Source of the DNA: Branchiostoma floridae
Taxonomy: Eukaryota > Chordata > Leptocardii > Amphioxiformes > Branchiostomatidae
Length of the DNA stretch: 64,000 nucleotides
NCBI RefSeq assembly: GCF_000003815.2
Contig: NC_049984.1
Span: forward strand, 19,777,939-19,841,938
Direction: 5' to 3'
Below, one piece after another: positions 1,482 through 62,870 of the stretch (positions are counted from its first letter, which is position 1; each line of letters begins with the position of its first letter). The notes beneath the pieces are model-generated. The model did no database searches. It was not told the origin of the DNA and saw only the letters and a program-made list of their open reading frames with translations. The position numbers and the translations under genes are program-made.

Positions 1482-1817
1482 AAACACTCGTACCACTTTG
1501 TCAATGACAAAGAAATCATGGTGCTCTTTGACGGAAAAGTATGTACAATTGATAAGTGTGGTAAACCACTACTGATAACTAAAAACTCGGCCATAACGAT
1601 AAAATACGAATGTCCAAACGTGCCATGTGGGAGTCCGATCATAAGCTCATGTTGGGAGCAGCATTATGTTTGAAGGGAACGTTCTCCTCCCTGATGCTAT
1701 CTTATTTGCAGAACTTTCAAGACGTTTTCTGACATTGAAAATGCAATGAACCTGTAGTGCTCCGGAGAAACACATTTCTACCACGTCCAGTGGACCTACC
1801 TGCTAAAATCTGTCTGG

Positions 1818-2175
1818 ACTACAGAGATGCCAGGGGACCTGCATGCGGCAGGGTATGTTGAAGAATGTTTTGCTAAGAGTCAAAGTGCCGGAGGACTCTA
1901 TCACATTATACCTGATGTCCTCAAGAGAAAGAAAGTGAAAAAAGATACTTTTAAGACAAGTTTAAGGAGAACAATCTACAGCTAATCAAAGACGCCAATC
2001 GGGATGTAGCCTATGGATATGGTCTTTGTGCTGTACTCGAGTTCAATCAGTCCGACATGTTCCCCACTGAAGTAGAGTTTTCCAGCTGTGGTGCAGATAA
2101 GGGTACTGTGCTATTAACTAAATTTAAGGAGTGGATCAGTTCATGTTCAGACGAGGATGTGGCATTTCGCTTATT
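1818..2175 (+). pseudogene. Broken copy of the DUF6589/ankyrin-type gene
   Basis: This stretch aligns closely, by eye, with the minus-strand coding sequence near 58250-58620 of the 1247-residue gene. Shared segments include EMPGDLHAAGYVEECFAKSQ, DVLKRKKVKK and, in a second frame, VAYGYGLCAVLEF and the acidic stretch before VAFR. A short deletion after the KKVKK codons (about 1945) shifts the frame, and in-frame stops follow. Similarity starts abruptly near 1818 and ends near 2175, where the intact gene continues into its RIQSVNLF segment. It is a truncated, nonfunctional paralogue about 56 kb from the intact gene and in opposite orientation, which shows the gene family is multicopy. Confidence 0.85.
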
Positions 2176-15135: not shown

Positions 15136-15139
15136 AGAT

Positions 15140-16900: not shown

Positions 16901-16906
16901 GCCTTG

Positions 16907-17047: not shown

Positions 17048-17049
17048 AG

Positions 17050-19020: not shown

Positions 19021-19023
19021 CTA

Positions 19024-21725: not shown

Positions 21726-21729
21726 GGCC

Positions 21730-28069: not shown

Positions 28070-28748
28070 GTATGCCATATCGGAACGAGAACCCTAAACT
28101 ACAATCGCGTTATTAAGTCATAACCCTACCCGGTGCCGTGACAGGCTCAAGAAAAGTAGCTGGCGGTTGCGCCTAAACAAGGTCAGTATACTCAAGAATA
28201 TCTCGGGAAGGAAGTATCCAACTATTTTGCGGTTTTGATCTTACGATTCCTTACTATGGGACCTTTCCAACAATACCAAGTGTGCCATGCCGAAACTTAA
28301 ACCCTTAAACTACAAACGCGTTATTAAGTCATCACCCTAGCCGGTGCCGTTACAGACACAAAAAAAGTAGCTGGCGGTTGCGCCTACACAGGGTCCGTAT
28401 ACTCAAGAATATCTAGGGAAAGTATCCGACTATTTTTTCGGTTTTCATCTTCCGATTCCTTACTATGGGACCTTTCCAACCATATCAAGTGTGTCAGGCC
28501 AGAACTTGAACCTTAAGATACAATCGCGTTATTAAGTCATCACCCTAGCCATTGCCGTGACAGGCGGTGTTTGATGAAAAGTAGCTAGCGGTTGCGCCTA
28601 AACAGGGTCCGTATACTCAAGAATATCTCGGGAAGGAAGTATTCGACTATTTTGCGGTTTTCGTCTTTCAATCCCTTACTTTGGGACCTTTCTAACCATA
28701 TCAAGTGTGCCAGGCCGGACCTTGAACCCTAAACTACAATCGTGTTAT
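28070..28748. repeat. 210-bp satellite resumed, about three units
   Basis: Three more units of the same family as 21730-26264 (ggtgccgtgacaggctcaag at 28131, then 28342 and 28553 with variants). The last unit stops at caatcgtgttattt and passes without spacer into the second satellite family. Confidence 0.95.
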
Positions 28749-30595: not shown

Positions 30596-30714
30596 GCACA
30601 GCCCAGCCCGCCAGTTCATCCAACTTCACCGGCAGCTCAAGGAACGGACTGTGAGTCTTTTGGCTTCCTTTGTTAGGCAGGTTTTTCCCCTCCCTCTCTT
30701 GATTTGTGAAATGT

Positions 30715-43733: not shown

Positions 43734-44788
43734 GACAGACCATAGAAGCCATAATGGATTTCAGAATGTTACGTCTGGCTTCGAGAGACCTTATAGCAAC
43801 AGAGGGCCAACACCATAGATCATGCTACCGAGCATAAACTAAAAGTACGGAACCGAACGTATCAAGAGCTATTTCAACAACCCTAGGGTACTAAGAATGA
43901 CAGATCTCTCCTCTAGATTAGTAGAGTCTATGAAGTCTCTTGGTATAGAGCCTACCATGATGAGGATGACCCAATCGAGAAACACATGCGGTGGAGCAAG
44001 AAGGGTGGCGTAACTTGATAACAATTTATATTCTGATAGAGAGGGTGTCACCCACAAATATCTAGATGAAGTAATATACACATTTATACCTACGTAGAAC
44101 CGAACTAAATTTGAGACTTTTTAACGACGTCCAAGGTGAACAGTTACCCATTCGAGCTCAGAAAGACAAGAGCAGCCATTTTCCAATACCTTGGAATGTG
44201 TTACACGTAAAGGAAGTACTGACAACGCAACAACAGATAACACACCAAGGTACAAATGGCGGCCAAATAGAAACAAAAAGCTGTGGAAACAAAAGCGCCA
44301 TTGCCTTGACCTGAGACATAAAGAATATTACACCTCTTGCATCATTCCATCATTATTATTGGAATAAAGACACTGCAATGGACCTCATCCTTGCCGTTGC
44401 CTTACTCTCGGTACACGAAAACCGGTGACCGGCCTCGTCCGTAATCATCGTTTACAACTTGGCGTGAGTCGGCAGGATCGGGCTGCGATAACAAGGAAAA
44501 ACAACAGAACATCATGGGGGCCGCAACTGCAAGAACACTGAAGAACACGGAACACCAAGCAAGCTACAACTGGACTGTGTGACACGGGACTGCGGCAGCA
44601 CTAAAGAACATCAAGGTAAGGGAATCTGTTGTGGGGTTGATGGAGATGCACAACAGTCGCCTTTAGTAATAGCCGAAGTTGTCATCTTGCTATAGATGTG
44701 GTAGTTGTTAGGAGGGGAGTGTTTAATGTAAGTAGTAGTTAAGTATCGATGGCAGAAGGGGGGACTTTCCGGGAATCCCCGGTTTCAC

Positions 44789-45040
44789 ATGACTGTTTTG
44801 TCTCAAAGATCTACAGATATTAGATCCAGAACATTTGCGGACTACTCTAACTACGTGCCAACACTGGACAAAGTTTGGTCTCCCGCCAGCGCCGTGCAAT
44901 TTTCTGGTACTCGTAAACTACATAGACACACTAGAGGAATAGATTTGGTTAATCCTCGACCCAGAAACGGGGCTATTTGGAGTAAAGGACAAAAAGTTTA
45001 TCAAGGATGTCTGTTTGGAGATAGCTCTAGTATTCACTAG
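44789..45040 (+). other. Open segment, unidentified
   Basis: An 83-residue open segment (FADYSNYVPTLDKVWSPASA, then GTRKLHRHTRGIDLVNPRPR) with no recognised domain. It may be chance. 45040-46080 contains no gene that I can support; A-runs lie near 45910-45925. Confidence 0.15.
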
Positions 45041-46080
45041 CTGCATCCTTAAACATATGCACCTACTAGTGATCAACAATAATACCACAACCGGTTAACT
45101 GGCCGCTCTTCAGGTACCCGGTAGGACAGAATTAGGGCAGTAAAAAGGATTTTTACGGATTCCTCACCGCAAACGGTTTTTAACATGCGAAGAAGTAGTG
45201 GAAAGTTCTAAATGACAGACTGACCTGGTACAATCCCAGATTAATAGAAAACAAAAATAGAAAGTTGCAAGTATACCTGGATGGATTAGATGGAAGAAAC
45301 AGCGGTCTTACATCGTATTCTACCGTTTGAAACATTTTGTACACGTGAAAAATTTAACATTTGTAACATTTTCTCGATTAGACGCTTTTCCTGGCACAAA
45401 TGTAAGGCGTTTTAGTGATTTTGGTTAAAATTAAGCTAGCCGATACAGACGTTCTGGACCAGGAGACATTTGTGTGATTGACGTAGGCTGTGTCCTGTGT
45501 TTGATCTCTCATTTCCTCATATGGTAAGAGCGGGCAGCTGACTGGAATCAACGAGCAAAACGCCCAACGTTCATTCTGAGCCTGGCAGAGCCAGCGTGAG
45601 GTTGTGTTATTTATACTCCACCATGGCCAAATATCCAGGCTTCCCAACCCGTATATTCTCATGAAGACTATAAATATCCTGTCAGCAGAGAACTACAATC
45701 TTACCGCAGCATTAGTTAGACTTAACAGGCAGGTACGTGAGCTGCAAGGATCATCAGAAAATCTACAGCTTGAGCTGAGAGCAGCCAGGGGGTGAGATGC
45801 CATGTACCAAAGGCCGGGACAATGCCGGCCATTATGTGTAACCTGCGTCTGTTCTTTCCGTTCCATTGGAGGCATAGTACGTGTCGTGGGTCATTAAAAT
45901 TATAAATAGAAAAAAAAAAAGCAAAAAAGGAGACATGGAAAATAGTACAAAAGGAGGCCAGGTGCCTTCCCTTACGTCAGCTGCCGACAACTGAGAGAAG
46001 GGTTTTTTTCCTCCTCAAAAAACTATAAATGGAACATCCAACTTAATGAAGAAGAAAAAACATTTCTCACAATAATGACT

Positions 46081-46219
46081 AACATCCAACATACCCATCT
46101 AACTAAGCTGCACCAGCCCCCACTGAGCCCGAGGCACAGTCCCCGAAGTCTGGGTTTCCAAGAGGCTGGACAGATGTAACAATAGACCTGACTAACAACC
46201 CCAGAGTAAGTTGGATGTT
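46081..46219. mobile_element. Short TIR element, family A, copy 2
   Basis: Begins aacatccaac, ends gttggatgtt (perfect 10-bp inverted repeat). The interior is nearly identical to 51252-51391. Weaker similarity to copy 3 continues for a few tens of bases on both outer sides (aataatgact before, ctgccacaa..taactaaacat after), so the real element may be longer than the core given here. Confidence 0.8.
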
Positions 46220-46381
46220 CTGCCACAATAACTAAACATTGATGTCCTCCCCTCCGTCCCCCTGGCACCGCGTTGCGGCCGCCATGCGCGAGGTCTTGCC
46301 TTCCCCTGGCGACGTCTCGCCCCCCCCCCCCTCCCAGATGACGACCAGCCTCAATCTTCTCTGTTCTTCTATGATGACATC

Positions 46382-46666
46382 TTGATCCCCTACGTTCCAT
46401 TCCACCGAATTCCATTCGACATTGACCCCGCCGACAACAACGTCGTTCACCTGCCGGCCGAATATGACCACGAACGTGACCACCCCCTACTCTTTCCTGA
46501 CGACAACCGCTACCACGATGATTCTGACGAAAACCGCCACCACTATGACTTTGATGACAACCGCAACCGTCCTTACCCTGACAACGACCGCCACTTCCCT
46601 GATCCTACAGACAACCGCTACCGCTATGACTCTGAGTCTGACGACGATCTCAACCGTCCTAACTAA
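46382..46666 (+). other. Low-complexity Asp/Arg/His/Tyr repeat frame
   Basis: The frame encodes degenerate repeats around a DDNR core (YHDDSDENRHHYDFDDNRNR, PYPDNDRHFPDPTDNRYRYD), from a DNA repeat of about 24-27 bp built on gacaaccgc. There is no start context or partner exon that I can support, so I list it as a coding-like low-complexity repeat only. The flanks include a poly-C run at 46320-46331. Confidence 0.4.
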
Positions 46667-47639
46667 CCGTCACTCCCCTGCTTCACCCAGACACTCTCCG
46701 CCTAACCATTCCTAGTCTACCCCACCTTTTTTCCTCTCCAGCATCTCTCTTTCATCTCCATCTCCTTTGTGGTAGTTACATTTCACAATCCATATGTACA
46801 ATGCAAGGATGCCCATGTTGAATGCATGGGTTCTTGGACATATGTCCAATCAACAATATAGAAATACCACCCCTACAATGACTCAGTGTATATATTGGTA
46901 AAAGGATATAAATAGATTCAGCCCTTGCCACAGCCACACTCCAGTAGTAGTTTCCTCAATACCACACCAAAGATTCAGCCATGTCCACTGCTATACCCCA
47001 GCAGTGGTTTCCTCAACACCGCAACAAGGATTCAGACCTTTCCACGCCTCAACAGACACGACGTGAACTTTCCTGATCGCAGTGACATTCACCCTTTTCC
47101 AGTCATACAGAACTTCATGAGCCCTCAGAGACGCTGAGTTAGAATAACTGAAATGTAAAATCAAAAAGTAGCTGAGGAAAATGAAACAGATGACAGGAGG
47201 CGTGAGGTGTCCGAAATACCGAGATATATCCAACCTCAGCAAGAGCATGGAAGAGCTGGAGCACCAAATACAACAGTGCATCATGTGCACGACGTTCTGA
47301 AGTCCATTTTTGCAATTTTTGTTCAGGCCTATGAGCTCAGTGGGTGGATGCAAGAGATCTACTCTTGTAAGCAAGGTGGCTAAATCTTCTTGCAAGCAAA
47401 GTGTAGGCCATCGGCAAGGATCAACGACCTATTCCGCAAAACATGGGTGTGCTGCTAGCCTATTGGTACAGTAAAGAAAGCCAACTACTCCTGTACAATC
47501 ACCACCAGTCATCCACAGCAGCCACCAGTCACCACAACCCAAACGCAACCTCGGAAGTACAGGCCCATCGCACCCCGTCTACCACAGCCACCCACCCCCA
47601 TCATACCAGTCATTCCACCTGCACAACAGCCAAACTTCA

Positions 47640-48170
47640 ATGAAACTTATCGGGCAGGAACCCCTCTACCTCGTTTTGGATTGGATTGGTGGGAGGAGGC
47701 CCAAGTTTCATTCAATTCGTGGGGTACCCCGCCTGAGCAGCAGGCCCACTTAGTCTTGCTTCGCCTACAGAGGGACGCCAAACGTGAGGTGGCCTGCCTC
47801 TCATCGCGGAAAAAGACAAGTATAGATACTATAGTCCGCGTATTAAGGGACGCTTGTAGAGACACCGCTCCCTGGACGACTTTGCTATCAGAGTTCTAAC
47901 GACGAGAGCTGGAAACGGATGAGTCGTATCGCAACTACGCCATCGCTCTGCCGGGCCTAGCGCACAGAGCGGAACAGAAGCGGCCAGGCATACTAACTGA
48001 CCAAGATGCTCCAAGATAGGGCCCTCCGCGATAAATTTGTAGCTGGGCCACAGGACAGAACTTTGAGTAGGCACGTAGAAGTGCACGTCTGGCAACGCCG
48101 GGAGTGTACATTTATGAATATCCGGCTGGAAGTAAGGGGACTAACAAGGGGGACGATCACCCGTCAAAGA
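47640..48170 (+). pseudogene. Ty3/Gypsy-type Gag fragment
   Basis: The first part (to 47899) reads WWEEAQVSFNSWGTPPEQQA, HLVLLRLQRDAKREVACLSS, APWTTLLSEF followed by TAA. The same domain continues past the stop (RRELETDESYRNYAIALPGL, then after a frameshift RALRDKFVAGPQDRTLSRHV and CTFMNIRLEVRGL). This is the pattern of retrotransposon Gag proteins: a helical capsid core with W-x-x-F/E-A-x-x-x-L repeats, a Y-x-x-x-L-x-x-L-A helix and an R-D-x-F-V-x-G-L-like motif. No zinc knuckle, protease or LTR was found. Disabled by a stop and a frameshift. Confidence 0.65.
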
Positions 48171-48371
48171 CGCTAGCTCCAGGGGCGGAGTCCCAGGGAC
48201 ATGATGACTAACTTGGAGGACAAACTGAACTGCAGGTAAAGTCTAAGGAAATCATCCCTTTTTTTTCCAAAAGCACGCACTGAGATGAAATTGTATCAAA
48301 AGCTTGACCAGTATAGCTTAAAGAAAGCTGTCTGTATACAGTCTTCCCCCAGTCTACTCCATTGTCGAGGT

Positions 48372-50005
48372 ATGTCCAGAAATGGGGTAAATGTACGAAG
48401 TTTGTGTGTACGAACTTGTACGAAGTTAAAGGTAGATATAGACCGTAATCGGTAAACTTCGGAAGTTTTACGTGACGTCATCTAAGTTCGTACAGGTAGG
48501 CAGGGTTGGTGTACGATGTACGATGTACGGAGTTAACAAATCTAAGTTCGTACAGGTAGGCAGGGTTGGTGTACGATGTACGATCTTAACAAATCTAACT
48601 TCGTACAGGTAGGCAGGGTTAGTGTACGATGTACGATGTACGGAGTTAACAAATCTAAGTTCGTACAGGTAGGCAGGGTTGGTGTACGATGTACGATGTA
48701 CGGAGTTAACAAATCTAAGTTCTTACAGGTAGGCAGGGTTGGTGTACGATGTACGATGTACGGAGTTAACAAATCTAAGTTCTTACAGGTAGGCAGGGTT
48801 GGTGTACGATGTACGATGTACGGAGTTAACAAATCTAAGTTCTTACAGGTAGGCAGGGTTGGTGTACGATGTACGATGTACGGAGTTAACAAATCTAAGT
48901 TCGTACAGGTAGGCAGGGTTGGTGTACGATGTACGGAGTTAACAAATCTAAGTTCGTACAGGTAGGCAGGGTTGGTGTACGATGTACGATCTTAACAAAT
49001 CTAACTTCGTACAGGTAGGCAGGGTTAGTGTACGATGTACGATGTACGGAGTTAACAAATCTAAGTTCGTACAGGTAGGCAGGGTTGGTGTACGATGTAC
49101 GGAGTTAACAAATCTAAGTTCGTACAGGTAGGCAGGGTTGGTGTACGATGTACGATGTACGGAGTTAACAAATCTAAGTTCGTACAGGTAGGCAGGGTTG
49201 GTGTACGATGTACGATGTACGGAGTTAACAAATCTAAGTTCGTACAGGTTGGCAGGGTTGGTGTACGATGTACGATGTACGGAGTTAACAAATCTAAGTT
49301 CGTACAGGTAGGCAGGGTTGATGTACGATGTACGGAGTTAACAAAATACATCGTACACCAAGTAAATATTTGTGTTCATTAAGTGCATTGAAGAATTGTG
49401 GTCAGGCCAGAAATACAAAGTTGACAGTTCAAAGACCATACAGAAGGCACTTGAAAAAGTTTTGAATAATAGAAAGTAACAGAATTTAGAATGATGAAAG
49501 TATTGTCGATTTCTCATAAATTTTAACGTTCCTACTAAGGCATAATGGTATACAACACTCACAAAAATGCTACCTAATGTTAGTCAAAACAAAATGATCT
49601 TGACTAAACTCATTTCATATAAGTCATTCTATTGGAACGAAGATATATAGCATAACTCACGACAAAGTCAAAACATTTTAACTTCGTACATCGTACTTCG
49701 TACATTAGGTCCGCCCCATGTACGAACTTAGCATAACCCACAAAATAGAAAACATTTTAACTTCGTACATCGTACATTAGGTCCGCCCCATGTACGAACT
49801 TACCATAACCCACAAAATATAAAACATTTTAACTTCGTACATTATAGGTCCGCCCCATGTACGAACTTAGCGTAGCTACGTCACAGATAATTGTCGACGT
49901 TTCCCGAACTTTGCCGACAGCGGTTGTCGGAAGGTAGAAATTGTCGGAAATTACGTGTGACGTAGGCTGATCCAAACTTCGTACATTTCACCCATTTCTG
50001 GACAT
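48372..50005. mobile_element. Minisatellite TIR element, family C, complete copy
   Basis: The left end atgtccagaaatggggtaaa..tgtacgaagttt (48372-48403) is an inverted copy of the right end, which reads aaacttcgtacatttcaccc then atttctggacat and ends at 50005. Between them are, in order: a short spacer with cgtgacgtcat, a 60-bp minisatellite (48480-49340), a unique middle (49340-49660), a 79-bp minisatellite (49675-49865) and a conserved end segment (cgacgtttcccgaactttgc). No coding capacity is credible; the frames through the 60-bp array are open only because the unit is a multiple of three. A clear target duplication is not visible. Confidence 0.85.
48480..49340. repeat. 60-bp minisatellite
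   Basis: The unit (taacaaatctaagttcgtac, aggtaggcagggttggtgta, cgatgtacgatgtacggagt) repeats with exact 60-bp spacing for about 14 units, with a few shorter units that lost one cgatgta step. Three consecutive units (48721, 48781, 48841) share the change ttcgtac to ttcttac, a sign of recent local amplification. The same family is at 26727-26950. Confidence 0.97.
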
Positions 50006-50227
50006 GATATTTTCTGGAAAAACGGTGATATTTTGTATAAGTATTGAAAAAAAATCGAGACAAGTTCAAAACCAGCTCTAATGCTCTAACTCTAAATGAC
50101 AAATCAGACTTACTCGGAGCAAGAGAGGGTTTTATACGTCCACTTCTGAACTTTTGGTTCCTATCTTTGAATGTGATAGATGTCTTTGTACCTAGTTAGG
50201 TAATAGTGATAACTGAGAAGCCTAGGA

Positions 50228-50902
50228 TTGGTATGCAGATATCACTTATCAAATATAGGGCGTCAAGAAAGCACGTGTAAGACCTCCTACATACGTCAGA
50301 GCTACAGAGGAGACTACTGTTTGCTCGACGACACAGACAGGAAGGGCAACATACTCCAAAACAAGGAAGACATCGTCAGGGACATGAGAAAACCTGTCAT
50401 TCCGCGTCGAAAGAAGTCAGACTCAGTGAAATGGACAAGTATCTCGGAGACGGGAGTGAAGAAGGTACTACAGATGAGACAAGCTCTGGGTAAGATTTTG
50501 AGGAAACACCGGAAAAAGCCTCCCTAACTGTATTCGGTGGCTGGTGTTGTCTCTGATGAGAACAGAGGAGGCGAAGTTAAGGTAGGTTTCACTAAGGTTA
50601 AGTGGACGGGGAGCTGGCCTAGCCAGCAGTACTCCTGGGTCCAGTTGGAGGCCTACCTACGTCACTACATGGAGGCCACTACTCTGGGTAGTGGAGGGAC
50701 CCAAGAAGCGCAGGACATTCCGGTGCAGACCCTGAGGACAGCCTTCTACACTGCCCTAGGCAAAGGGAGTCACAAGGCTGGCCAGTACACCAGCAAAGCC
50801 AGCCTGACCATCCCCTTCACAAGTGCAGAGTTTGACAAGTTAACACACTACTTTCCGTCACTGATCACTGATATTGTTAAAACCTTATTCATCATAACTT
50901 AA
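50228..50902 (+). other. Two open segments, unidentified
   Basis: 50228-50527 reads SYRGDYCLLDDTDRKGNILQ, then SDSVKWTSISETGVKKVLQM and a basic tail RKHRKKPP. 50537-50902 reads GFTKVKWTGSWPSQQYSWVQ, then TLRTAFYTALGKGSHKAGQY. Both have real-protein composition. They could be exons of one broken gene because they are adjacent and co-oriented. No domain recognised. Confidence 0.25.
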
Positions 50903-51251
50903 CAAAACAGTTACAGTATTTCAATCCTAAAATTGCATCTTCCTTAACTCCGGACGAATTGTATACACAACAATGTTGAAAATTTGTTCATCGGATACAA
51001 TAGTTTAGGGTTATCGAGGGATAGTCAGAAGTGTCATTTCGTACATCAATATACTCATTCAAGGAATGGCTGTTACTATTAACAACCATCTGTGAAAGTT
51101 CCACTTTTGTTGTATGGACTAGTCATAGGAATTGATATGTGTCTAATTTGTGTGAGGAATCGATGGGGACACCGAAAACATCAACACTAGTATGAATAAC
51201 ATGAGCAAAATCAGCTTCATGAAAACACTTTTCTCTTAATATTAATGACTT

Positions 51252-51391
51252 TAACATCCAACAGACCCATCTAACTAAGCTGAACCAGCCCCCACTGAGC
51301 CAGAGGCACAGTCCCCGAAGTCTGGGTTTCCAAGAGGCTGGACAGCTGTAACAATAGACCTGACTAACAAACCCTGAGTAAGTTGGATGTT
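51252..51391. mobile_element. Short TIR element, family A, copy 3
   Basis: Begins aacatccaac and ends gttggatgtt. The interior is almost the same as 46081-46219 (accagcccccactgagcc, cacagtccccgaagtctggg, aggctggacagctgtaacaa, tagacctgactaacaa). No open frame of interest. Confidence 0.8.
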
Positions 51392-52094
51392 CTGCCAAAA
51401 CAAAAGCCAAATAACTAAACATAGATGTTATCAGTGATGTGTTTCGATTTGATCCGCCACCAATGGTAACGTTTGATTGCAGTTAACCTCCTTTAACGGT
51501 GACTTCCTTTGACTTTGAAAGATATTGACTTTATCGACCAGCGTATGACACTACTATATCGATGACCATCTGTTGATTTGGTCTGCACCAGTACATTGCG
51601 TTGGTTGATGTTCGCCTCATCTCCGAGCTTCTGTACAGGAAACAAAAAATAAAGAAGCAAGATTAGTTGTGTAACAATTTTTCTTTTGCCAGTTGACGCG
51701 ATAGATATGTCTTGAAGTCTAATAAGTCTGGCAATAGTTGGTATTTTTTAGCCAGCAGTCTCCGGCAGCAGAGAAGTGGAGTGGACACATGGTCGATAAC
51801 ACTTAAACATAAAAAAAACGTCTTCATGGTTCGGAAACATATCAAAAAAAGATTTGTGATATGTTCAAGAGAATATTGAAAAGTAGACCGATCCAGTCCG
51901 CCAACACGTAAACAAGATAATCCATCACAGATGTCAGCCTCGGTTGGCCTCACAGTCACACCCAATTCTTGAGTTATCTAATAGTAGAGTAGAGTAGACT
52001 TCTTTTGATCACGAATTGCAGACGAAAAACGGGTAAATATCATCAGAAACTAGAAGTTCGGGACCAAATCTGAGGGTATGGATAAACTTGACGT

Positions 52095-52572
52095 NNNNNN
52101 NNNNNNNNNNNNNNNNNNNNNNNNNNNNNNNNNNNNNNNNNNNNNNNNNNNNNNNNNNNNNNNNNNNNNNNNNNNNNNNNNNNNNNNNNNNNNNNNNNNN
52201 NNNNNNNNNNNNNNNNNNNNNNNNNNNNNNNNNNNNNNNNNNNNNNNNNNNNNNNNNNNNNNNNNNNNNNNNNNNNNNNNNNNNNNNNNNNNNNNNNNNN
52301 NNNNNNNNNNNNNNNNNNNNNNNNNNNNNNNNNNNNNNNNNNNNNNNNNNNNNNNNNNNNNNNNNNNNNNNNNNNNNNNNNNNNNNNNNNNNNNNNNNNN
52401 NNNNNNNNNNNNNNNNNNNNNNNNNNNNNNNNNNNNNNNNNNNNNNNNNNNNNNNNNNNNNNNNNNNNNNNNNNNNNNNNNNNNNNNNNNNNNNNNNNNN
52501 NNNNNNNNNNNNNNNNNNNNNNNNNNNNNNNNNNNNNNNNNNNNNNNNNNNNNNNNNNNNNNNNNNNNNNNN
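52095..52572. other. Assembly gap of 478 N
   Basis: A sized-looking gap just upstream of the helicase gene promoter. If the two-gene block is a mobile element, its left end may be inside or beyond this gap. Confidence 0.99.
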
Positions 52573-52871
52573 TCCGCGGACGCTGGTAGATTTGGAATCA
52601 AAATGGCGCCCGCATATTTAATGAGCCCGCTGTTGCCATGCGGGATAATGTATGCAAAGCGCCGACGGAAGCCCGAGCGCGCCCGAGCGCTGGGGGACCC
52701 GAGAAATAATGATATGCAGCTGCTGTGCTACGTCACGATCTGCCAGAAATAGCACAGCGGAGACACGATCGGGGTATTTCACAACCAAAACAAAGGACGG
52801 TAACATTCTAACACCGTGATGCTAACCATGGCCGAGCTCCTCTGGCGGCAAAAAGGTGCCAAAATGAAGAC

Positions 52872-52888
52872 ATTTGCATTTATAAAAG
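52872..52888 (+). promoter_or_regulatory. Octamer-like plus TATA box promoter of the helicase gene
   Basis: atttgcat (52872-52879), an exact octamer (POU-type) word, is followed one base later by tataaaag (52881-52888). The first ATG of the zinc-finger frame is at 52919, about 30 bases further, so transcription would start about 0-10 bases before the coding start. This would give an extremely short leader. The arrangement is seen directly; use as a promoter is inferred. Confidence 0.5.
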
Positions 52889-52918
52889 CCAGAAGATCAA
52901 AATCACAACGGTCTGGAG

Positions 52919-55714
52919 ATGGCGGAGAGTCAAGAAAACGACGGAGAAGGACTAAAAAACCTGAAAAATACCGCTTGTCGAGCCTCCAGAGAGGGGAGGG
53001 TGCCGTGCCCCCACCATGACTGCGACGGCAATGCTGTGTTTTTCCAGAAAGGAGCCGGCCTGGACGTGCACTATCGTTCTAAACACGGCACAAAATCGGA
53101 CGCCACGACGGAAAAAACAGCGAAGCAGAAGCTGAGCCAGCTGTGTTTCGAAGAGATGAAACAGAAACTACAAGATATCGAGGTTCGTATGATTTTTAAA
53201 TAAGTTTTGTTCGTGTATTGATTGGAGATCGCTTACTGTAATATTTAACAGGGAGAAAGAAATATCTAGGATCTTGCCTCTCAGTGTCTCGGTATGAAAT
53301 AGATATCTATGTTTTCCAGCTCTGAGTTCGTAGTTTAATATTTGTAAATCTTCTACTTTTCTTTGCGTAATTATGAGTAAAGTATGTAGAATTTTCCAAA
53401 CTGCCGCATGTGCAAACTGTTAGTGCTACCAACAGACATGATAGGGTATCTGGAAGTCTACTTTGAAGGGAAGATGTCCTTTTCCTGTACTCTCCAAGCA
53501 GAGGTTAGGCTCTGGCTGTTTTTTCAACGTTTTTAGTCGTTTTTATCAGGCTTTCTTTTTTCTCTTTTTTTTTTGCTGTGGCCAACCGTGGACACAGCAA
53601 AAAAATATGACAAAATAGAAAGTCTGATCAAGTTTGGTCCGATAAAAACGACCAAAAAACAGCCGGAGCCTAACCTCTGCTTGGATAGTACTTTTCCTGT
53701 ATATTCCATTATTGATTCATTCCATTACTGATACCTGAACATAAGTGAAATTTCTATGCCATAGTTGCAATCAATGGATGTTGGGAAATGCTGAAATAAA
53801 ACATATCCTGGGTTTAATATTTACTGTGTCCATTTCTTGTTGTTTAAAAAAACTATGGCACACAAAAGATAGCACACTGTACTTATGTTGTTTGTCATTT
53901 TTTTCTCTTCCAGGCAAATGAGCAAACAGGTGAGGAGTTTGCAGTGACAAGCGTGTCCTTGACAGTAAAAATCACAGCGACAAGACCAGAACAAGCAGCA
54001 AAAAAGGCAGGTGTAATTCTCCATGCTGGATCTTTCCTTCATTCATACTCAAGTGGGCTGCCACCGTACGCTGTCACTGTCCAAGGCAAAAGCAAGGAGG
54101 TGCACTACCATCTCTGGTATGTTTTGGATGTGCACGGCAACATGAGGTACCCAGCCATTGTTTGCAAGCCCTTTTTTGTGAAAACGTTATTGGAAGAGCA
54201 CCAGTCCAACGATGGTACCACCAACAATGCCGCCCCCCAACCATTTGGAGAAATTGGAGAAACAGAAGATGGTATGGAAGATCCTTTAGAGGAGTGCCTC
54301 AGGAAGGTGTTCAAGATGCCGTCTTTCCGCCCAGGACAGAAAGACATTGTCAATTCCATCCACACTGGTCAGAACACCTTTCTCGTAATGCCAACAGGTG
54401 GTGGGAAGACACTCTGNNNNNNNNNNNNNNNNNNNNNNNNNNNNNNNNNNNNNNNNNNNNNNNNNNNNNNNNNNNNNNNNNNNNNNNNNNNNNNNNNNNN
54501 NNNNNNNNNNNNNNNNTCTTTTGGAGATGGTCATCGTGGACGAGGCCCACTGCATGGACCAGATGGGTCATGAATTCCGCCCTACCTACCTACAGCTCTC
54601 CAAACTTGCAGAACTGCAAACACAAATTGTTGCATGTACAGCAACTGCCACCCCCACAACAAAGGAGTTCATCATCACAAACCTTCAGATGGGGGAATGC
54701 CGTACCTTTTACCACTCAGTGGACAGAAGGAATATTCAATACTGTGTGCAGTTAAAGGGGAAGACGAGGGAGGTGTGCCATGGCCAGGTGTGCGAGGTGG
54801 TTCTGGAAAACAAGGATCAGTGTGGCATCGTTTATTGCCAGACAGTAAGCGATGTCAAGGACATCCACTATCACCTACAAGAAAACGGGGTAAGAACAGT
54901 AAAGTACCATGGCACAGGGACAGGACAGAACGAGAGGGAGGGAAGACAAAGTTTGTTGGACTGGCAGAGAGGCCTAAAGGATGTGCTTGTAGCGACAAAG
55001 GCGGCAGGGGCAGGGATAGACAAACCCGACGTGAGGTTTGTCGTCCACCTTGGCTGTCCCTCCTCTGTCCCTGACTACCTACAGGAATCGGGACGTGCCG
55101 GGCGGGACGGAAGGCTGGCGAAGGCAGTCCTGTTGTACAGCCCAAAGGACAAGTCTTTGCACGTAAAGAGGATCGGAGAGATACAGGACGAGGCATACAG
55201 GGCGGGAGCTATCAGAAGACTCTCTGACATCATCAACTTTTGCGAAACAGAACTGTGTCGAAGGAAGATTTTGTTGGAGGCTTTTGCAGAGGATACGACC
55301 TCATTTGAATGCAACAAAACTTGTGACAATTGTCTCAACCCAACTGTGGCAAGAGAGATTGTCCTGACCACAGAAGCTGCCAGAATGGTGAGGTGCGTGT
55401 CTGCTATCCGGCATACTGTGACACAGCCACCTTCATCTCTACTGGCTAGAGTTTTCCTTGGCCTTGGGTCTGGACAAGAGGTGAAGAAGCAAAAGTTGGA
55501 TCAGCTACCTGAGTTTGGTCTGGGAAAAAACTCTGGCTTCAATCTCAAAATGTGTGAAAGATTTATCCGCAAATTAACTAGGATAGAGATTCTTCAAGAG
55601 GTACTAGTGCCTGTGAGTGACACTCGCAAGTTTGCCTCTCTGTACATCCTCCCAGGGAGGATGGCAGAGTCTACAATTCAAAATGATGTAAATGTCACCT
55701 TATTCATAAGGTAA
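52919..55714 (+). CDS. C2H2 zinc-finger/RecQ-type DNA helicase (one intron, internal gap)
   Basis: Exon 1 (52919-53182, 88 residues) encodes a C2H2-type finger: CPHHDC, then HYRSKH (residues about 22-48), followed by a helix. The donor is gag|gttcgt and the acceptor tctcttccag; exon 2 starts at 53914 in phase 0 with ANEQTGEEFAV. Helicase motifs: FRPGQ (motif 0) and MPTGGGKT (motif I) just before the 100-N gap; after it VDEAHCMDQ (motif II), ACTATATP (III), GIVYC (IV), VLVATKAAGAGIDKPDVRFV (V) and ESGRAGRDGR (VI). A RecQ-type zinc-binding segment follows: FCETELCRRKILL, CNKTCDNC. The frame after the gap differs from that before it, as expected for a gap of unknown size. The C-terminal ~100 residues have no domain I recognise. 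The product would unwind DNA in 3'-5' direction with ATP, from family knowledge. Confidence 0.85.
53488..53690. mobile_element. Foldback TIR element, family B, copy 2, in the helicase intron
   Basis: Begins tactctccaagcagaggtta and ends ctctgcttggatagta, with long inverted arms (ggctctggctgtttttt / aaaaaacagccggagcc; gtcgtttttatcaggctttc pairs with a diverged partner). It is flanked by the direct repeat cttttcctg at 53479-53487 and 53691-53699, a 9-bp target duplication. It therefore inserted as a unit in the intron. The arm order matches 21521-21725. Confidence 0.9.
54417..54516. other. Assembly gap of 100 N inside the helicase
   Basis: Placed right after the motif I GKT codons and before the motif II DEAH codons. 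In known RecQ helicases this interval is about 100 residues and contains motif Ia, so roughly 300 bases should be missing unless the gene is truncated. The frame change across the gap supports an arbitrary length. Confidence 0.95.
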
Positions 55715-56045
55715 CTTTTTATTATGTCTATGTATATAGTTATCACGATGTTTATGTATATAGTCATGTCATGTAAGCCAATGAGGGCTATATGATAAGA
55801 GTATGAATGATGTAAATGTCACCTTATTCATAAGGTAACTTTTCATTATGTCTATGTATATAGTTAGAATGATGTTTATGTATATAGTCATGTCATGTAA
55901 GCCAATGAGGGCTATATGATAAGAGTATGAATGATGTAAATGTCACCTTATTCATAAGGTAACTTTTCATTATGTCTATGTATATAGTTAGAATGATGTT
56001 TATGTATATAGTCATGTCATGTAAGCCAATGAGGGCTATATGATA
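55682..56045. repeat. ~124-bp tandem triplication over the helicase stop codon
   Basis: The sequence aatgatgtaaatgtcacctt begins units at about 55682, 55807 and 55930; the word ttcataaggtaacttttcat and tcatgtcatgtaagccaatg recur in each. The last ten codons and the stop of the helicase lie in the first unit; the other two are in the presumed 3' untranslated region. Units 2 and 3 are almost identical. Confidence 0.93.
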
Positions 56046-57291
56046 GGGTTTATTTGGAAATTATACCTCTTTCTTTAAGTGCATCTATTGTCAACTTGCT
56101 TCAATCATTTTGGTATCAGTGTCAACTTGTATATTTATGACAGTATATTTTTTGGGGATTTATTTCCTGTTTGTAGCAAGGCTTCTTTGTAATCTGCAGC
56201 TATTCTGAGTCAGGGTATTTGATATTCTTTCGTGATAGAACAACATGTATTTAACATCGAGGGAAGTACAATGTACTTCCATATAATGTATGACTTGTTC
56301 CTCTCAATTAGAAGGGATTATTGCCTGTCTATTTTTACATAAATGTTGTAAGAGGTTTTGTATGTACAGCTTTTATCTCAATACATAACTGCTGAATTGA
56401 CTGGAAGCTGTGAATTGCTAAAGTAGAGAGATAAGTTAATGGAGACCATTTCAATTGTTGTGTTATAAAGCTCATCTCACACTACAAATGACAAGTAGAA
56501 GTAGTATGTATATACATGTCTTTTATTTACATGCTTGTAAAGTACAGCTCAAAATTACATCATACCTCTTTCAAGTGGGTATGCGGTGTGAATTACCATG
56601 AATACTCAAACCTAGAGTACTGATAGTACATGTGCAGAAGTAGTTCTTAAGATAATACAGCCAGTGTAAATCTCTATCAATACCTGCACACCTTGACATA
56701 CCAATTTTGTGTTATGCCTTAAGAAATAAATGGCAACATTTGCAATGACAATGAAAATTTAGTTCACACGAATGCTTCCTTCACACCACTGGTAATTTGA
56801 ATGATTCACAGTTAATAGTATGCAAAATGTAACAAACCTTCAAATGCAACTGTCCCTCAGGTACAATAATACAGAGATGCCTATCACATTTTGTCTGATA
56901 AACAAAACTTTGACTTACATTTACAACACATAAGAAAAATAAGCCGCTGTACTCACACAAAAAAGTCACATTATAGTTGTACAGATTCTACTATTATATA
57001 AGGGCTGGGTTTGGCAATAACTGCTGAACAGGAATACAAGGCAATGGTTCCAGCTGTAATCTTTCAGCCCTAATCTAACATGTCTATGTATAAATCTATC
57101 AATCACCATATTAATAATACAAATCACTGTTGGCACATTTGCCATGAGCACAGAATACACTCTTCTCCTCTGTGGAAGCGTGGCCAGACATAGTCTGTCA
57201 AAGTTTGACCTGACTTTGTCACAGCAGGTACTTCATTCTCAATTCTGCAAGAATATTTTCCCTGTGCACAGAGCTGTCATTTCTGTAAATT
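56046..57291. other. Convergent intergenic region; no further gene
   Basis: AT-rich sequence with only short open stretches. An aataaa at 56725-56730 could end the plus-strand helicase transcript, and a tttatt at 56522-56527 (aataaa on the minus strand) could end the opposing transcript. If both are used, the two messages overlap by about 200 bases at their 3' ends. This is a weak inference from hexamers only. Confidence 0.35.
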
Positions 57292-57483
57292 TAGTCTCCA
57301 AGCAGACCCTACGGTGCCTTAGAGATAATATCAAAGCTGGCAAAGGAGTATAGCCCGCCAAAGGGAGATAGCCCGCCAAAGGGAGATAGCCGGCCAAAGG
57401 GAGTCAAACGGGTGCCAGTATACCAAGTCCCTGGCCAGCTTTGATACTATTTTTAAGGCACCGTAGGGTCTGCTTGGAGACTA
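57292..57483. mobile_element. Foldback TIR element, family B-related, with 8-bp target duplication
   Basis: Begins tagtctccaagcagacccta and ends tagggtctgcttggagacta; the inverted arms extend to cggtgcctta...taaggcaccg and further to atcaaagctggc/gccagctttgat. The direct repeat tgtaaatt flanks it at 57284-57291 and 57484-57491. The centre carries three copies of a 20-bp word based on agcccgccaaagggagat. Its tip sequence (a-g-t-c-t-c-c-a-a-g-c-a-g-a) is close to that of the elements at 21521 and 53488. Confidence 0.9.
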
Positions 57484-57556
57484 TGTAAATTCTGTCAGAA
57501 ACATTTATACGTAACTGAAGACATCGCGAGAAAACATACAGTGAGTGTAAAACATA

Positions 57557-60500
57557 TCATTCTGCAGGCACATTTGCCCTGTACACAGTTTGAACTCGCC
57601 TCCTCTGAGGATACACATCGTACATTTTCCTGTCAAAATTGGCCTTGACCTTTTCACGGCCTTTTACATATACATCAATACAATCATTTAGAACAAACTT
57701 GCCACTGAAAGGATATGCCTTGGCCTTTCGGCGTTCAGTGTTGTGGAGAAAGAACTGCTCCTTCAAGCAATACATGCAGACCAAAATCTGGTCTGGAAGT
57801 GCTGAGGGTTCACTATGGCGCTTTGTGTGGTGAACATCAAAGCCACCTCTGGATTTGTAGCAAGCCCTCGCACTTCCTACCAGTTGCAGGTTCACATTCA
57901 ACCTCTGCAAAGTTTTCAGTGTTGTTTGGCCTGAGCAATACTGCTTCAGAGGCTTCACAATGTAAGACTCAACATACTCGTCATTTGCAATATTGTGACC
58001 AGCCTTCCCTTCAACACTTACAGAGCAATTCTGCCTAACCATCATCCTGGTAGCAATCGGCCATGCTGCTGTCACGTTTACAACATGCGACAGCGCCTCA
58101 ATCCAATAGTTCTTCTTCTTGGATTGGGCAAATATGGGCAACAACAACAGCCAAACAGTCTCTCTAGCAGCACCTATCCCATTCTTAATCGCACTATAAT
58201 ACAACCTTAGCAGTGGCCCAAACAGGTTTACAGACTGGATCCTGTAGCGAAATGCCACATCCTCTTCTGAACAAGAACTTATCCACTCTTTAAACTTAGT
58301 TAGTAGCAGTGTACCCTTATCTGGACCACAGCTTGAAAGCTCTACTTCAGTGGGGAACATGTCAGACTGTTTGAACTCAAGTACAGCACAAAGACCATAT
58401 CCGTAAGCCACGTCTCGATTGGCCTCTCTGATTAGCTGTAAATTGTTCTCCTTAAACTTATCCTTACCATACGTTTCTTTTTTCACTTTCTTTCTCTTGA
58501 GGACATCAGATGTTATGTGATAGAGTCCTCCGGGACCTTGAGACTTAGCAAAACACTCTTCAACATAACCTGCAGCATGCAGGTCCCCTGGCATCTCTGC
58601 AGTCCAGCCAAATGCAACCTCGTCACTTAACCTGCAGTGCCTGTGGTTTTTGGTTGTAAGGCCGTCCCCAACAGTGACATTTGGGGCATTCTTTCTATGG
58701 AACACATAGCCATCGTCACTGACATGAACTTCCTGTATCTGGCTAGCCAGGGTATCGACTTCACTGACACTTTCAACCCCCTCACCTGAAAACTGCATGT
58801 AAATATCTATACCTTCAGTGGCTGGGGCTACATAGTTTTCCAATAGGAACATAGTGTCATTCTGGCCCGTCCTTCTAGCAAGGGTTAGTGGAGACGGAAA
58901 ATGCATGAAAGTGATACCGTCTACGCTTACTCCCTGGGTCTCCAGGAGACACTTAACCATTTCTGTATCATGCCTGAGTACAGCGAGACAAAGGGGTGTA
59001 GCTCCACACCCTTCTTCACTATCTACATTTACACCTGCAGCTACTAGATACCTTAATAGCTTCACATTTCCTGTCTCTACAACTACGTGGACTAGACTAC
59101 GCTCTAAATGATCTACAATTCCATCCCAACTGTCCCTAGAGTCCAGCACGTACTTGGCAAACTCAGCTGTGTCTGCTGCATTCCCTGCTCTCTCTGCAAC
59201 GGCAAGTCTGTCCTCCATATTCGAAAGAACAGTTTTCATTTTCTCGTCTCTGTCCTTCCATCTCTGCTTCAGAGAACTGAGATGTCGAGAGTTTACAGGT
59301 ACCTCCGCGTCATCTTCTTCCAGTGCCACGTCTGCTTCCCCCTCATCATCCCAAGAGTCGGCTGCAATGGCGTTTAGTAGAACGGTTTGATCTGCCCTGT
59401 GTTGATTTATACTTTGGTTGAATTCATACCTCTTTCTGGCTGCTGTGATGTCAAACTGGATGTTGTGTTCATTAAACGGCAAGTATTGGGTTTGACTTCT
59501 TTCGATTGGAATGCCAAACTCTCGAGCAAACTCTTCGTCAATACAAGCTGTTCCAGTTAATGTTGCCTCATTTTCAGTTGACAAGGGAAGTATGAGTATG
59601 TCCGATTGTTTACATTTCAGTGGCTTTGCTGCTGGTTTGTGTTTTATTACGTGGGTTTTGGATGACTTGAAGGACTGTCCTGACATCCATGCTTTTTGTT
59701 CTGCCAGGGTTTTCTGTGACTGTTGTCGTGTGTCTTCTGGAAGTTGGTTCAGACCTATGTCTAGAAGCTCAAGGTAAAAACTGTCCTGGGCCTCTTCCCA
59801 TATCTGTGCCAATTCGGGATGGGTATCGATGAAAACATCATCCACAATGACGTCTTCCACGGGTTTCTGAGGCATCTCTGCGGTGTCCTTTGCTTCGAAA
59901 AGTTCCTTGATGCCTTCCAGGTCTGGCTTCAGCGCCATCCGAACAGTGAAGTTCCACATCCGTGGCTTCCCTTTTAACACTCTCATGTGACGCACGGCTC
60001 TGAAGATGTTGATGTTGTCATACGCAAATATGACAGGTCCATTGTCGCCAAACTTGCAGTCGATGACGGGTTGAAAGTTCTTCAGTCGCTCCCCCATGAA
60101 GCCCATTAGGGTGTCCCAGCTTTCTGACAAGCCGAGATGCTGTAACAGTGACACAAACTGTTTGCCGGCTCCGTAAGACACTGCGACAAGGCCAAACAGA
60201 ATGCTCACGTCATTGCTGGCTCGGGCGCTCCGCAAGTCCAGCAGGCCACAAAGAGCGTGTGTCGCACTCTTAAGCTTCACAGCATCAGTTTTCAGCTTGT
60301 TTTTTGAACTTCTGTCCGTTACAATTAATGTCCATAAAATGGAGTGTATGAGGGGACAGCTTTCATGTAGAGATTCGGCCAGGTGACTGAAGAATGTTTC
60401 TGGCACTTCATCAATGACTCTGTCCCTCACACCCAAGTTCACCATGCTTTCAAACTTCTTCATTTCCTCTGACAGCCTTGTTCGTTGCTCCAATGACAGG

Positions 60501-61300
60501 TGGTACCCACTTTTCATGTGTTCATTAAGGCTTTCCGCATGTTCCTTATACAGCCGTACAAGGGTGGACACAAGCTTGTTCCTTTTACTCCACAGCTCCG
60601 CAAACTGTGAAGATGCCTGCTGCTCTCCACCAAACTTGGCGATGCTTGCCCAGCTTTCCTCTAGCTCGAGGTCGACCTTCTCGATCAGTTTTCTAATGTT
60701 TTCAATTTGGTCTGTGCTGCCTGTGCCCAGCTGCAGATTACCCAACACGGGTAGCTTCCACCTTAAGCCTTTCAGAATCTTGTGGTGCTTGTCGTAGTCA
60801 TAGGAGAACACAGAAGCCGTTATTTTACAAAGTGACCTCCCTGATATCCTGGCACCCTCTGCCAACGCTTCCTCCTCCTCCTTGTTAGAACACTGCATGG
60901 CCATTTGTTTGCAGTGAGCTTGCACCTGACTGAGTATCTCGTCCTGCGAAAGGCTTCCTTCCTCGCGCTGACATTCTTCCAGCCTTTCCAGCAGGTATCC
61001 TCGTACAGCCGAGCATTTTGTTTCATTTTGTCTCCGTTTAGCAGAAGGCTGAGGAAGGGACTTGGATTTGGGTGTCAGAGTTCGCTTCTTGTCTTTCATT
61101 GGTGTTTTACTTTTAGTCGGTGTAGTTGCAAGTGGCGGTGACAGGTCTGGTAGCAGGCTAGCCAGTGGCTGGTCATCATCAGATGTCGCTTCTGCGCATG
61201 TTCTTAGTGTCTTTGTTGGGGTTGTTGCCAAGGATGGTGGTAGCAACCTGGCCAGCGGCTCATCATCCGATGACGTGTCACTGTCATCCATTTCTGCCAT
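57557..61300 (-). CDS. Large DUF6589-like protein with inserted ankyrin repeats, 1247 residues
   Basis: The frame is uninterrupted and intronless. Residues 1-90 are acidic, Ser/Thr/Pro-rich with two copies of a SDDEPLA/SDDDQPLASLLP motif and a basic KKRTLTPKSK patch (likely nuclear). About 130-340 is helical. About 385-480 contains YGAGKQFVSLLQHLGLSESW and VIFAYDNINIFRAVRHMRVL, like the N-terminal part of DUF6589 proteins. About 750-850 holds two to three ankyrin-type repeats (LVHVVVETGNVKLLRYLVAA, GATPLCLAVLRHDTEMVKCL). About 930-1200 resembles the DUF6589 C-terminal half: GDLHAAGYVEECF, KKKNYWIEALSHVV, EGKAGHNIANDEYVESYIVK, KTLQRLN. Start chosen at 61300, which follows a plausible 3' splice site at 61318. 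Function of DUF6589 is unknown to me; a recombinase role is only a hypothesis. A broken copy is at 1818-2175. Confidence 0.7.
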   Translation of the reverse strand: MAEMDDSDTSSDDEPLARLLPPSLATTPTKTLRTCAEATSDDDQPLASLLPDLSPPLATTPTKSKTPMKDKKRTLTPKSKSLPQPSAKRRQNETKCSAVRGYLLERLEECQREEGSLSQDEILSQVQAHCKQMAMQCSNKEEEEALAEGARISGRSLCKITASVFSYDYDKHHKILKGLRWKLPVLGNLQLGTGSTDQIENIRKLIEKVDLELEESWASIAKFGGEQQASSQFAELWSKRNKLVSTLVRLYKEHAESLNEHMKSGYHLSLEQRTRLSEEMKKFESMVNLGVRDRVIDEVPETFFSHLAESLHESCPLIHSILWTLIVTDRSSKNKLKTDAVKLKSATHALCGLLDLRSARASNDVSILFGLVAVSYGAGKQFVSLLQHLGLSESWDTLMGFMGERLKNFQPVIDCKFGDNGPVIFAYDNINIFRAVRHMRVLKGKPRMWNFTVRMALKPDLEGIKELFEAKDTAEMPQKPVEDVIVDDVFIDTHPELAQIWEEAQDSFYLELLDIGLNQLPEDTRQQSQKTLAEQKAWMSGQSFKSSKTHVIKHKPAAKPLKCKQSDILILPLSTENEATLTGTACIDEEFAREFGIPIERSQTQYLPFNEHNIQFDITAARKRYEFNQSINQHRADQTVLLNAIAADSWDDEGEADVALEEDDAEVPVNSRHLSSLKQRWKDRDEKMKTVLSNMEDRLAVAERAGNAADTAEFAKYVLDSRDSWDGIVDHLERSLVHVVVETGNVKLLRYLVAAGVNVDSEEGCGATPLCLAVLRHDTEMVKCLLETQGVSVDGITFMHFPSPLTLARRTGQNDTMFLLENYVAPATEGIDIYMQFSGEGVESVSEVDTLASQIQEVHVSDDGYVFHRKNAPNVTVGDGLTTKNHRHCRLSDEVAFGWTAEMPGDLHAAGYVEECFAKSQGPGGLYHITSDVLKRKKVKKETYGKDKFKENNLQLIREANRDVAYGYGLCAVLEFKQSDMFPTEVELSSCGPDKGTLLLTKFKEWISSCSEEDVAFRYRIQSVNLFGPLLRLYYSAIKNGIGAARETVWLLLLPIFAQSKKKNYWIEALSHVVNVTAAWPIATRMMVRQNCSVSVEGKAGHNIANDEYVESYIVKPLKQYCSGQTTLKTLQRLNVNLQLVGSARACYKSRGGFDVHHTKRHSEPSALPDQILVCMYCLKEQFFLHNTERRKAKAYPFSGKFVLNDCIDVYVKGREKVKANFDRKMYDVYPQRRRVQTVYRANVPAE

Positions 61301-62546
61301 TAAAAAAAATGGTTACTAGCTGACAAGCGTGATCATCATTTATACAAACTTACAATACTTTGTTAACTAGTTTGCATATCAGACCATAAAAGTAAAGCTT
61401 ACCATCAAAGGTATCCTATAAACAGACTGCAAAATGGAACTCGTTAGACAGAAAAGTCTGAGTTATAAATTTGTCATACCAAAAGAATTGTAATATATGA
61501 GTTGTAAAGCATTGCCTCACCTGAATATACACACTCTTCACTTCCTCCAGTAAGTCACTTCCTCCTTGTCGTCAAGCTAGGACAGGAATATCTCAGGACA
61601 CACCTAACAATGGGAAAGTTTTATCAGGGTGGTACAAAACAGACTGGCATTCTTTCCAAGAAAAACACATGTAGCTCTAATGTACTTGGTCATCCAGCTG
61701 TAAGCCACAGATTATATGCATCCAAAATATGAACATCAAAATTCAAATGGCTGATTCTTGCTTTACTATCCATTTCTAAATTAGACCCCCCCCCCCAAAA
61801 AAAAAAAGAATTTTGAGCTGGGAATTCATAAATGAAAATGGCATTGCTAAAATAAATATATAAAAAATGTAGCAAAAGTTATACATAATAACGCATTACT
61901 CCCCCAGCAAATGTATCCTAGAAATAGAGAGTAAATTGGGAGCTGTTTGAATTTAAGGTACCCACCCTGAGGGCGTTGCCAAAAACACCCCCCCCCCCCC
62001 TCCACGTGAATGAACTACTAACTTTCCACTTCACCATACCAATCATCAGCAAATTTGCGGCGAAAATAGCAATCGCCGCCCAATCTTTGTATATCAGAGG
62101 GGACATAAATGAAATATGAAGTTCGGGGCGATCTTATGTCTACAAAAATACGCGATGACTTTGAGCAAATTACCAAGATCGTAAACAGCATGGCGGCCAT
62201 CTTTTCCGATAAATAACATCCGAGTTTAGCCTACCGCATCGGTCTATTAAGATGCACATAATCCAAAATTTTGCGCCGATGGGAATATATGGTCAACATA
62301 GTATGGCCACAAATTGATATAAAAGTGCAAATTTTCCATTTGGAGTAAAAACGACGCGATGAAAAGCGTGCATGTATAAACTTGCATAAATTACGATAAA
62401 TTTTTTTACAGTTTTCAAACCGACATCACGAGTCGTGGAATCCTATTCAGACAATTATTTACCTTGTTCCAAAGACTATTCGCATCGTAGATTACACATA
62501 TAGATTTTTGAGGCACTCATGTATCTATAAAGTGTGAAAAACTTAC
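61301..62546 (-). other. 5' untranslated region and introns of the 1247-residue gene
   Basis: On the minus strand a strong donor (cgag|gtaagt) ends an upstream exon at 62547, and possible acceptors lie just before the start codon (cttgtcag and gctag near 61318-61324). A second donor-like site (tcag|gtgagg) near 61519 suggests an additional small non-coding exon. AT-rich intron-like sequence fills the interval, with homopolymer runs at 61786-61808 and 61989-62000. No separate gene seen. Confidence 0.5.
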
Positions 62547-62645
62547 CTCGAAAATCGGCGACTCCCGTGCAGAAATCGCGACTCCCATGTAACCAATTCT
62601 GGCAGCGTCCTGACGCGCCAGTAGCTCTCCTTCCCAGGTTTATAT
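62547..62645 (-). promoter_or_regulatory. TATA-type promoter and first exon of the 1247-residue gene
   Basis: Minus strand reads gatataaacc with tataaa at 62644-62639. Roughly 30 bases downstream would place the transcription start near 62614. The presumed first exon runs from there to 62547 and contains two copies of the word cgggagtcgc / tgggagtcgcg before the gtaagt donor. The region is GC-richer than its surroundings. Confidence 0.5.
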
Positions 62646-62804
62646 CGCTTCCCCCAGCATGCTTTGCGCGGAAAAGTTACACTCGTACCCAGGTTACCCA
62701 GGACACAAAGACTTGGTAAACACGAAAAGGCGCCCCGCTATGCTCAGTGGGCCCGGGGCGTGGATCTAATTAAAGGACGCTGTGGAGGAGCGTGGTGTGG
62801 AACT

Positions 62805-62870
62805 ATTTTCTGGCGGCACTTGTGTACATCCTGTCTGGGGAGGGTATTCGGTGGCGAGGGATGACGAGGC
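62805..62870. repeat. Patch shared with 18268-18345
   Basis: actattttctggcggcactt, then gtgtacatcctgtctgggga and gggtattcggtggcgaggga match 18266-18345 (actatttttggcggcgcttg, gtgtaccttccgtcaggcct, gggtattattcggtgcaggc) with few changes over ~65 bp in the same orientation. It is 160 bases upstream of the minus-strand promoter and may be the edge of a repeated unit. Confidence 0.55.

Follow-up and report, generated by a model that had tools for sequence, protein, structure and literature searches.

A RecQ-type helicase gene and a convergent DUF6589 gene in amphioxus as a probable AcademH-type DNA transposon

A 64,000-nucleotide stretch of the Branchiostoma floridae genome (C6:19777939-19841938, hereafter the window) carries a gene for a RecQ-type helicase which faces, in convergent orientation, a gene for a 1247-residue protein of the Pfam family DUF6589. 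Both had been called in an initial annotation of the stretch made without database searches, and both were confirmed here by the sequence and by Pfam. The locus raises the question of whether these two genes travel together, as that annotation supposed. We addressed it by searching the genome (513,431,437 bases; genome-wide match counts given throughout are lower bounds). The mobile-element reading of the pair is well supported: the genes are linked at many loci, their copies have common borders and 9-bp target duplications, and a diverged unoccupied site was found. Very probably, the helicase gene and the convergent DUF6589 gene make up a single AcademH-type DNA transposon copy about 10.6 kb in length.

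Linked genes, shared ends and target duplications

The DUF6589 protein of the window has 33 matching stretches genome-wide, itself included, the next best at full length lying at C7 and C1 (68% identity), while the helicase part (398 aa) has 71, again with itself included. The 55 Pfam DUF6589 matches, merged within 15 kb, gave 47 loci. A RecQ match was present within 15 kb at 18 of these (the window included), compared to 0.13 expected under uniform placement, and at 13 of the 18 the arrangement was convergent. Linkage elsewhere had been named as a test in the initial annotation, and the unlinked outcome did not occur. The helicase is convergent with DUF6589 in the window and in the copies C1, C7, C10, C12 and C2; the last carries both genes and falls outside the 47 loci because it is missing from the Pfam match list. 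C1 and C7 share about 98.8% identity over an alignment of about 11.4 kb that breaks off sharply at its ends, and the frames of both genes are open in each.

All four long copies found with both ends (C1, C7, C12 and C2, with assembled lengths of 11477, 11400, 10305 and 9358 bp and assembly gaps inside the latter two) share an identical terminus type, CACGCTC...GAGCGTG. The transposase-side end reads CACGCTCCTCCACAGCGTC, with the variant CACGCTCCTTCACAGCGTC in C12 and C2, and the helicase-side end reads CACGCTCGTACCCAGCGCC. The two ends are inverted repeats of each other, though imperfect ones: in C1 and C12, the copies compared, 15 of 19 positions agree. Exact 9-bp target duplications flank C1 (TGGTTGGTT), C7 (CGGTACCTT), C12 (ATGCAGCAT) and C2 (ATTTTTAGT), and their sequences differ among the four copies. 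For C10, the helicase-side end alone was found in the DNA examined. The shared borders and target duplications that the initial annotation had proposed to look for are therefore present in 4/4 long copies. Comparison with empty alleles, also proposed there, yielded one case: the joined flanks of C7 match one other place, C7:14747218-14747493, in an alignment (73% identity, several gaps) that continues across the target region and contains a single, diverged copy of it. We take this stretch to be an unoccupied, diverged relative of the site into which C7 inserted.

The same ends also border much shorter elements. The terminus pattern CACGCTCNTNCNCAGCGNC matched the genome 106 times, compared to 0 for the reversed pattern. 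Pairing of neighbouring inward-facing matches within 12 kb, among the 100 of these 106 that were listed, gave 34 pairs: the 4 long copies, 3 elements of 1.7-2.2 kb, a group of 24 measuring 537-610 bp, and three others with lengths of 62, 113 and 405 bp. Exact 9-bp duplications were observed at 27 of the 30 shorter elements; among 870 mismatched left-right pairings, the best agreement was 6 of 9. The shorter elements, for which only the ends were compared, are presumably non-autonomous derivatives or a family resembling miniature inverted-repeat transposable elements with the same ends. Their mostly exact duplications suggest, with no dating implied, that the 24 elements of 537-610 bp are not old. 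Two tiny elements, C4:5368556-5368617 (62 bp) and C13:22050593-22050705 (113 bp), consist of nearly the termini alone and have exact 9-bp duplications.

The initial annotation had found no terminal repeats, but one is present at the transposase-side border (Table 1). The other end is predicted to fall in an assembly gap, as that annotation had suspected. In the 5/5 copies examined (C1, C7, C12, C10 and C2) the distance from the helicase-side terminus to the following REGRVPCPH codon is 804-823 bp. This conserved position of exon 1 is at 52988 in the window, and the hidden end should therefore lie at about 52165-52184, in the gap. There it is predicted to read CACGCTCG..., with GTGTGGAAC before it. 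An exact second GTGTGGAAC was not found at 44001-52100, as expected if this partner is also in the gap.

Table 1. Features of the window copy and of the degraded second copy (window coordinates)
Feature	Position	Strand	Basis
Assembly gap expected to hide helicase-side terminus, predicted ~52165-52184	52095..52572	.	
Helicase exon 1, MAESQEND..., C2H2-like	52919..53182	+	Reading frame, donor site; kept in C1, C10, C12
Helicase intron GT...AG, with two imperfect inverted repeats inside (I2, I3)	53183..53913	+	Predicted splice signals
Helicase exon 2, DEAD/Helicase_C/RecQ_Zn_bind/RQC	53914..55714	+	Pfam
100-N gap within helicase; 267 bp there in C1 copy	54417..54516	.	Sequence, alignment coordinates
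124-bp tandem repeat, 2.9 copies, helicase 3' end	55682..56045	+	Tandem Repeats Finder (TRF)
Presumed DDE transposase, 1247 aa, DUF6589	57557..61300	-	Pfam; full-length relatives C1, C7, 68% identity
Presumed catalytic E, E1111, NIANDEYVE	57968..57970	-	D-x3-E motif in aligned DUF6589 relatives, register by eye
Presumed second catalytic D, D879, VGDGLT	58664..58666	-	Aligns with VVGDAK of distant L011 DUF6589 protein
Ankyrin-repeat segment, aa 737-827, between presumed D428 and D879	58820..59092	-	Pfam, PDB sequence matches
Presumed first catalytic D, D428, FAYDN	60017..60019	-	Conserved in copies; DN motif of L011 protein matched by eye
Transposase-side terminus CACGCTCCTCCACAGCGTC, read on - strand	62776..62794	-	Identical to C1, C7 termini; in genome-wide pattern listing
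Presumed one copy of 9-bp target duplication GTGTGGAAC	62795..62803	+	Directly after terminus; partner presumed in gap
Piece of degraded second transposase-gene copy	1815..2170	+	tblastn, 81-85% identity

The presumed transposase and the helicase

The 1247-aa frame matches Pfam DUF6589 with an E-value of 9.2e-16, in 2 stretches only, and ankyrin families match the same frame (best E-value 5.4e-7), which bears out the earlier description of a DUF6589-like protein interrupted by ankyrin repeats. An Ank match was also obtained with the C1 protein, and C7 and C12 have an aligned counterpart of the segment. No ankyrin match was present in the DUF6589 frames of loci L002, L011, L005 and L027, all of them incomplete (fragments, or a subset of the exons). 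Conservation among copies and motif matching suggest that D428, D879 and E1111 may constitute a DDE triad. The motifs FAYDN, VGDGLT and NIANDEYVE have SIDNIN, VVGDAK and NVALDESHE as L011 counterparts, the first and third registers being set by eye. The first two presumed aspartates are separated by 451 residues in the window protein compared to 208 in L011, and the ankyrin repeats fall within this longer stretch. From the target duplications and the conserved acidic residues we infer that DUF6589 is the DNA-cutting transposase. The best 60 of 285 matches in a PDB sequence search were all in or around the ankyrin stretch, and are therefore uninformative on the catalytic part. No relatives of the transposase were found in a prokaryote genome collection or among viral contigs.

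The helicase frame matches Helicase_C, DEAD, RecQ zinc-binding (RecQ_Zn_bind) and RQC in Pfam. Its two-exon model with a GT-AG intron was read from the sequence using predicted splice sites; exon 1 harbors a C-x4-C...H-x4-H motif, conserved in the C1, C10 and C12 copies. Over its last 397 aa, the window helicase shares 86-87% identity with those of C1 and C7. The pair had been described as well preserved. The transposase frame is indeed open over 1247 aa, while the helicase, with the 100-N gap inside its gene, may or may not be intact.

Both genes have low values among diverged copies for the ratio of nonsynonymous to synonymous substitution rates (dN/dS). The ratio was 0.07-0.09 for the helicase part between more diverged copies, and 0.09 for the transposase between C12 (partial frame) and C1 or C7. 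Window and C1 transposases are saturated overall, with dN/dS values of 0.12-0.17 in the 4/5 segments that are unsaturated; the ankyrin segment gave 0.13, similar to neighbouring segments. For the comparison of C1 with C7, the synonymous rate (dS) came to 0.014 (transposase) and 0.011 (helicase part).

The mechanism that we infer assigns roles to DUF6589 and to the helicase. The large DUF6589 protein would act as a DDE transposase, binding the imperfect terminal inverted repeats, excising the element and joining it to the target with a 9-base stagger, fill-in of which would generate the 9-bp duplications. The convergently encoded RecQ-type helicase, with its zinc-finger-like first exon, probably unwinds the ends or aids repair or replication around the transposition intermediate.

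Elsewhere in the window, the initial annotation had noticed that the 1247-residue gene was copied, and the paralogous piece is indeed real (Table 1). This degraded second copy straddles the left edge of the window, with further pieces upstream at C6:19770389-19773616; no helicase remnant was found beside it by tblastn in window 1-20000. The window holds 13 frames of at least 150 aa, several of them across N gaps. A Pfam scan of 4 window frames gave, besides the pair, one match to a Mutator-like transposase (PF20700) in a 202-aa frame at 33967-34575. Satellite arrays with units of 210/420 bp and about 202 bp occupy 21727-30596 (TRF). No match was obtained in an Rfam search of the window.

Affiliation and competing explanations

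AcademH is said, in the title of Kojima 2020 (Mob DNA 11:15), to occur in animals and fungi. According to passages of PMC10045372, AcademH elements generate 9- or 10-bp target duplications and carry a helicase, whereas AcademX elements of the same superfamily generate 3- or 4-bp duplications and carry a nuclease in its place, the difference in length being seemingly tied to helicase and nuclease. The amphioxus element resembles AcademH by the presence of a helicase besides the transposase, here of RecQ type, by 9-bp duplications (4/4 long and 27/30 shorter copies) and by terminal inverted repeats, imperfect here (15/19). It differs from AcademX in duplication length (9 bp compared to 3-4 bp) and in having a helicase instead of a nuclease. 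The ankyrin repeats within the transposase are a feature of the amphioxus element and a possible difference from AcademH. The element very probably belongs to a known kind, the initial annotation having missed that helicase-bearing elements of such type are already described as AcademH. Possible novelties are the mosaic copies described below and the position of the ankyrin repeats, which separate the first two of the presumed catalytic residues, both aspartates. No amphioxus DNA transposon with a RecQ helicase was found in the literature searched, and excerpts of PMC10294476 and PMC4455052 contain nothing on helicase-bearing Academ elements.

Several observations weigh against an AcademH-type transposon. 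In the current assembly the window copy is without one end and without part of its helicase, and the AcademH assignment was made from described features. Structure prediction on 8 sequences gave a mean predicted local distance difference test (pLDDT) score of 39.4, too low to show a DDE fold. At 29 of the 47 DUF6589 loci there is no RecQ match within 15 kb, and the expectation of 0.13 presumes a uniform placement which transposon-rich DNA disobeys. At C9 and C165, which hold transposase pieces, the 7.5 and 7.8 kb of sequence inspected contained no helicase piece. Among the 100 terminus matches listed, 32 were unpaired, and 3/30 shorter elements have no exact 9-bp duplication: at C8:3819617 a 10-bp duplication with one difference was seen by eye, while flanks agree at 7 of 9 positions for C12:6185254 and at 3 of 9 for C2:5506572. 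Values of dN/dS between C1 and C7 were 0.35 and 0.30, with few changes (26 and 6). Finally, joined-flank searches were carried out for C7 and C12, and that for C12 matched its own flanks only, with no empty site.

Conservation of both frames among copies, with low dN/dS, is also what two ordinary host genes, adjacent by chance within repeats, could display. Such genes fit poorly with multiple copies that share their termini and have target duplications, with the shorter elements and with the unoccupied site, and we consider the chance of this explanation practically negligible. Helitrons, which are not known to make a target duplication, and Polintons, which make one of 6 bp, were discounted on those features. 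Kolobok elements duplicate TTAA. In combining a transposase with a RecQ helicase, the amphioxus element is similar to helicase-bearing Kolobok elements (KolobokH); it differs in target site, its duplications being 9 bp long and varied in sequence (27/30 exact). Passages of PMC9587614 describe KolobokH as a DDD/E transposase with a RecQ helicase, reported from fungi alone, and mention Kolobok lineages known to have a RecQ helicase, including a red alga example with RecQ on the complementary strand. Taken together, a KolobokH rather than an Academ element is very improbable here. Helicase-bearing DDE transposons of a new superfamily, resembling AcademH only in target duplication and helicase, would be in line with DUF6589 being unnamed in the literature searched, and with a window protein that matches no more than two stretches of the Pfam model and has an ankyrin insert. 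However, the helicase and the 9-bp duplication match AcademH, as described in passages of PMC10045372, and other DUF6589 loci of the genome are also RecQ-linked, so that we hold a new superfamily to be improbable.

Separately, the DUF6589 locus L011:2800-9999, with L012:3-1073 (C6:26077746 region), carries a frame of 2762 aa whose C terminus bears a cysteine-rich CXC domain; within 15 kb of L011 there is no RecQ match. This long frame perhaps belongs to another Academ lineage. We gave up an assignment of L011 to AcademX, with an XPG nuclease, since Pfam gave DUF6589 above cut-off in the part of L011 scanned and CXC in L012, and no nuclease.

Mosaic copies and implications

Returning to the AcademH-type element, we compared its copies in 400-column windows of the element alignment. 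The window copy is close to C12 at 52573-53100 (0.96 identity; 95.0% in a pairwise alignment of 52573-53191) and at about 56320-57080 (0.88-0.92). In the C-terminal half of the helicase, it is instead nearer to C1 (about 0.83) than to C12 (0.70-0.75), and in the 5' part of the transposase gene C1 and C12 resemble each other (0.95-0.96) while the window copy is at 0.63-0.70 to both. Over window 52573-57080 and 61100-62794, the nearest relative, C1 or C12, thus changes by segment. On these alignments, segment exchange between sub-families would be the simplest reading of the mosaic copies. A broader scenario, which we put forward tentatively and with some doubt, is that an AcademH sub-lineage gained an ankyrin module between the first two catalytic aspartates, perhaps for binding of a host protein, and that its copies trade the helicase, the spacer and the transposase 5' part as whole modules through recombination, helicase and transposase evolving separably.

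DUF6589, in Pfam a family of unknown function, is now tied to a transposon whose ends and target duplications have been measured. The near-identical C1 and C7 copies with open frames, together with the 24 short elements, would make the role of a RecQ helicase in DNA transposition testable. A further caution is that gene models of RecQ-like or DUF6589 type in the amphioxus genome may be transposon genes.
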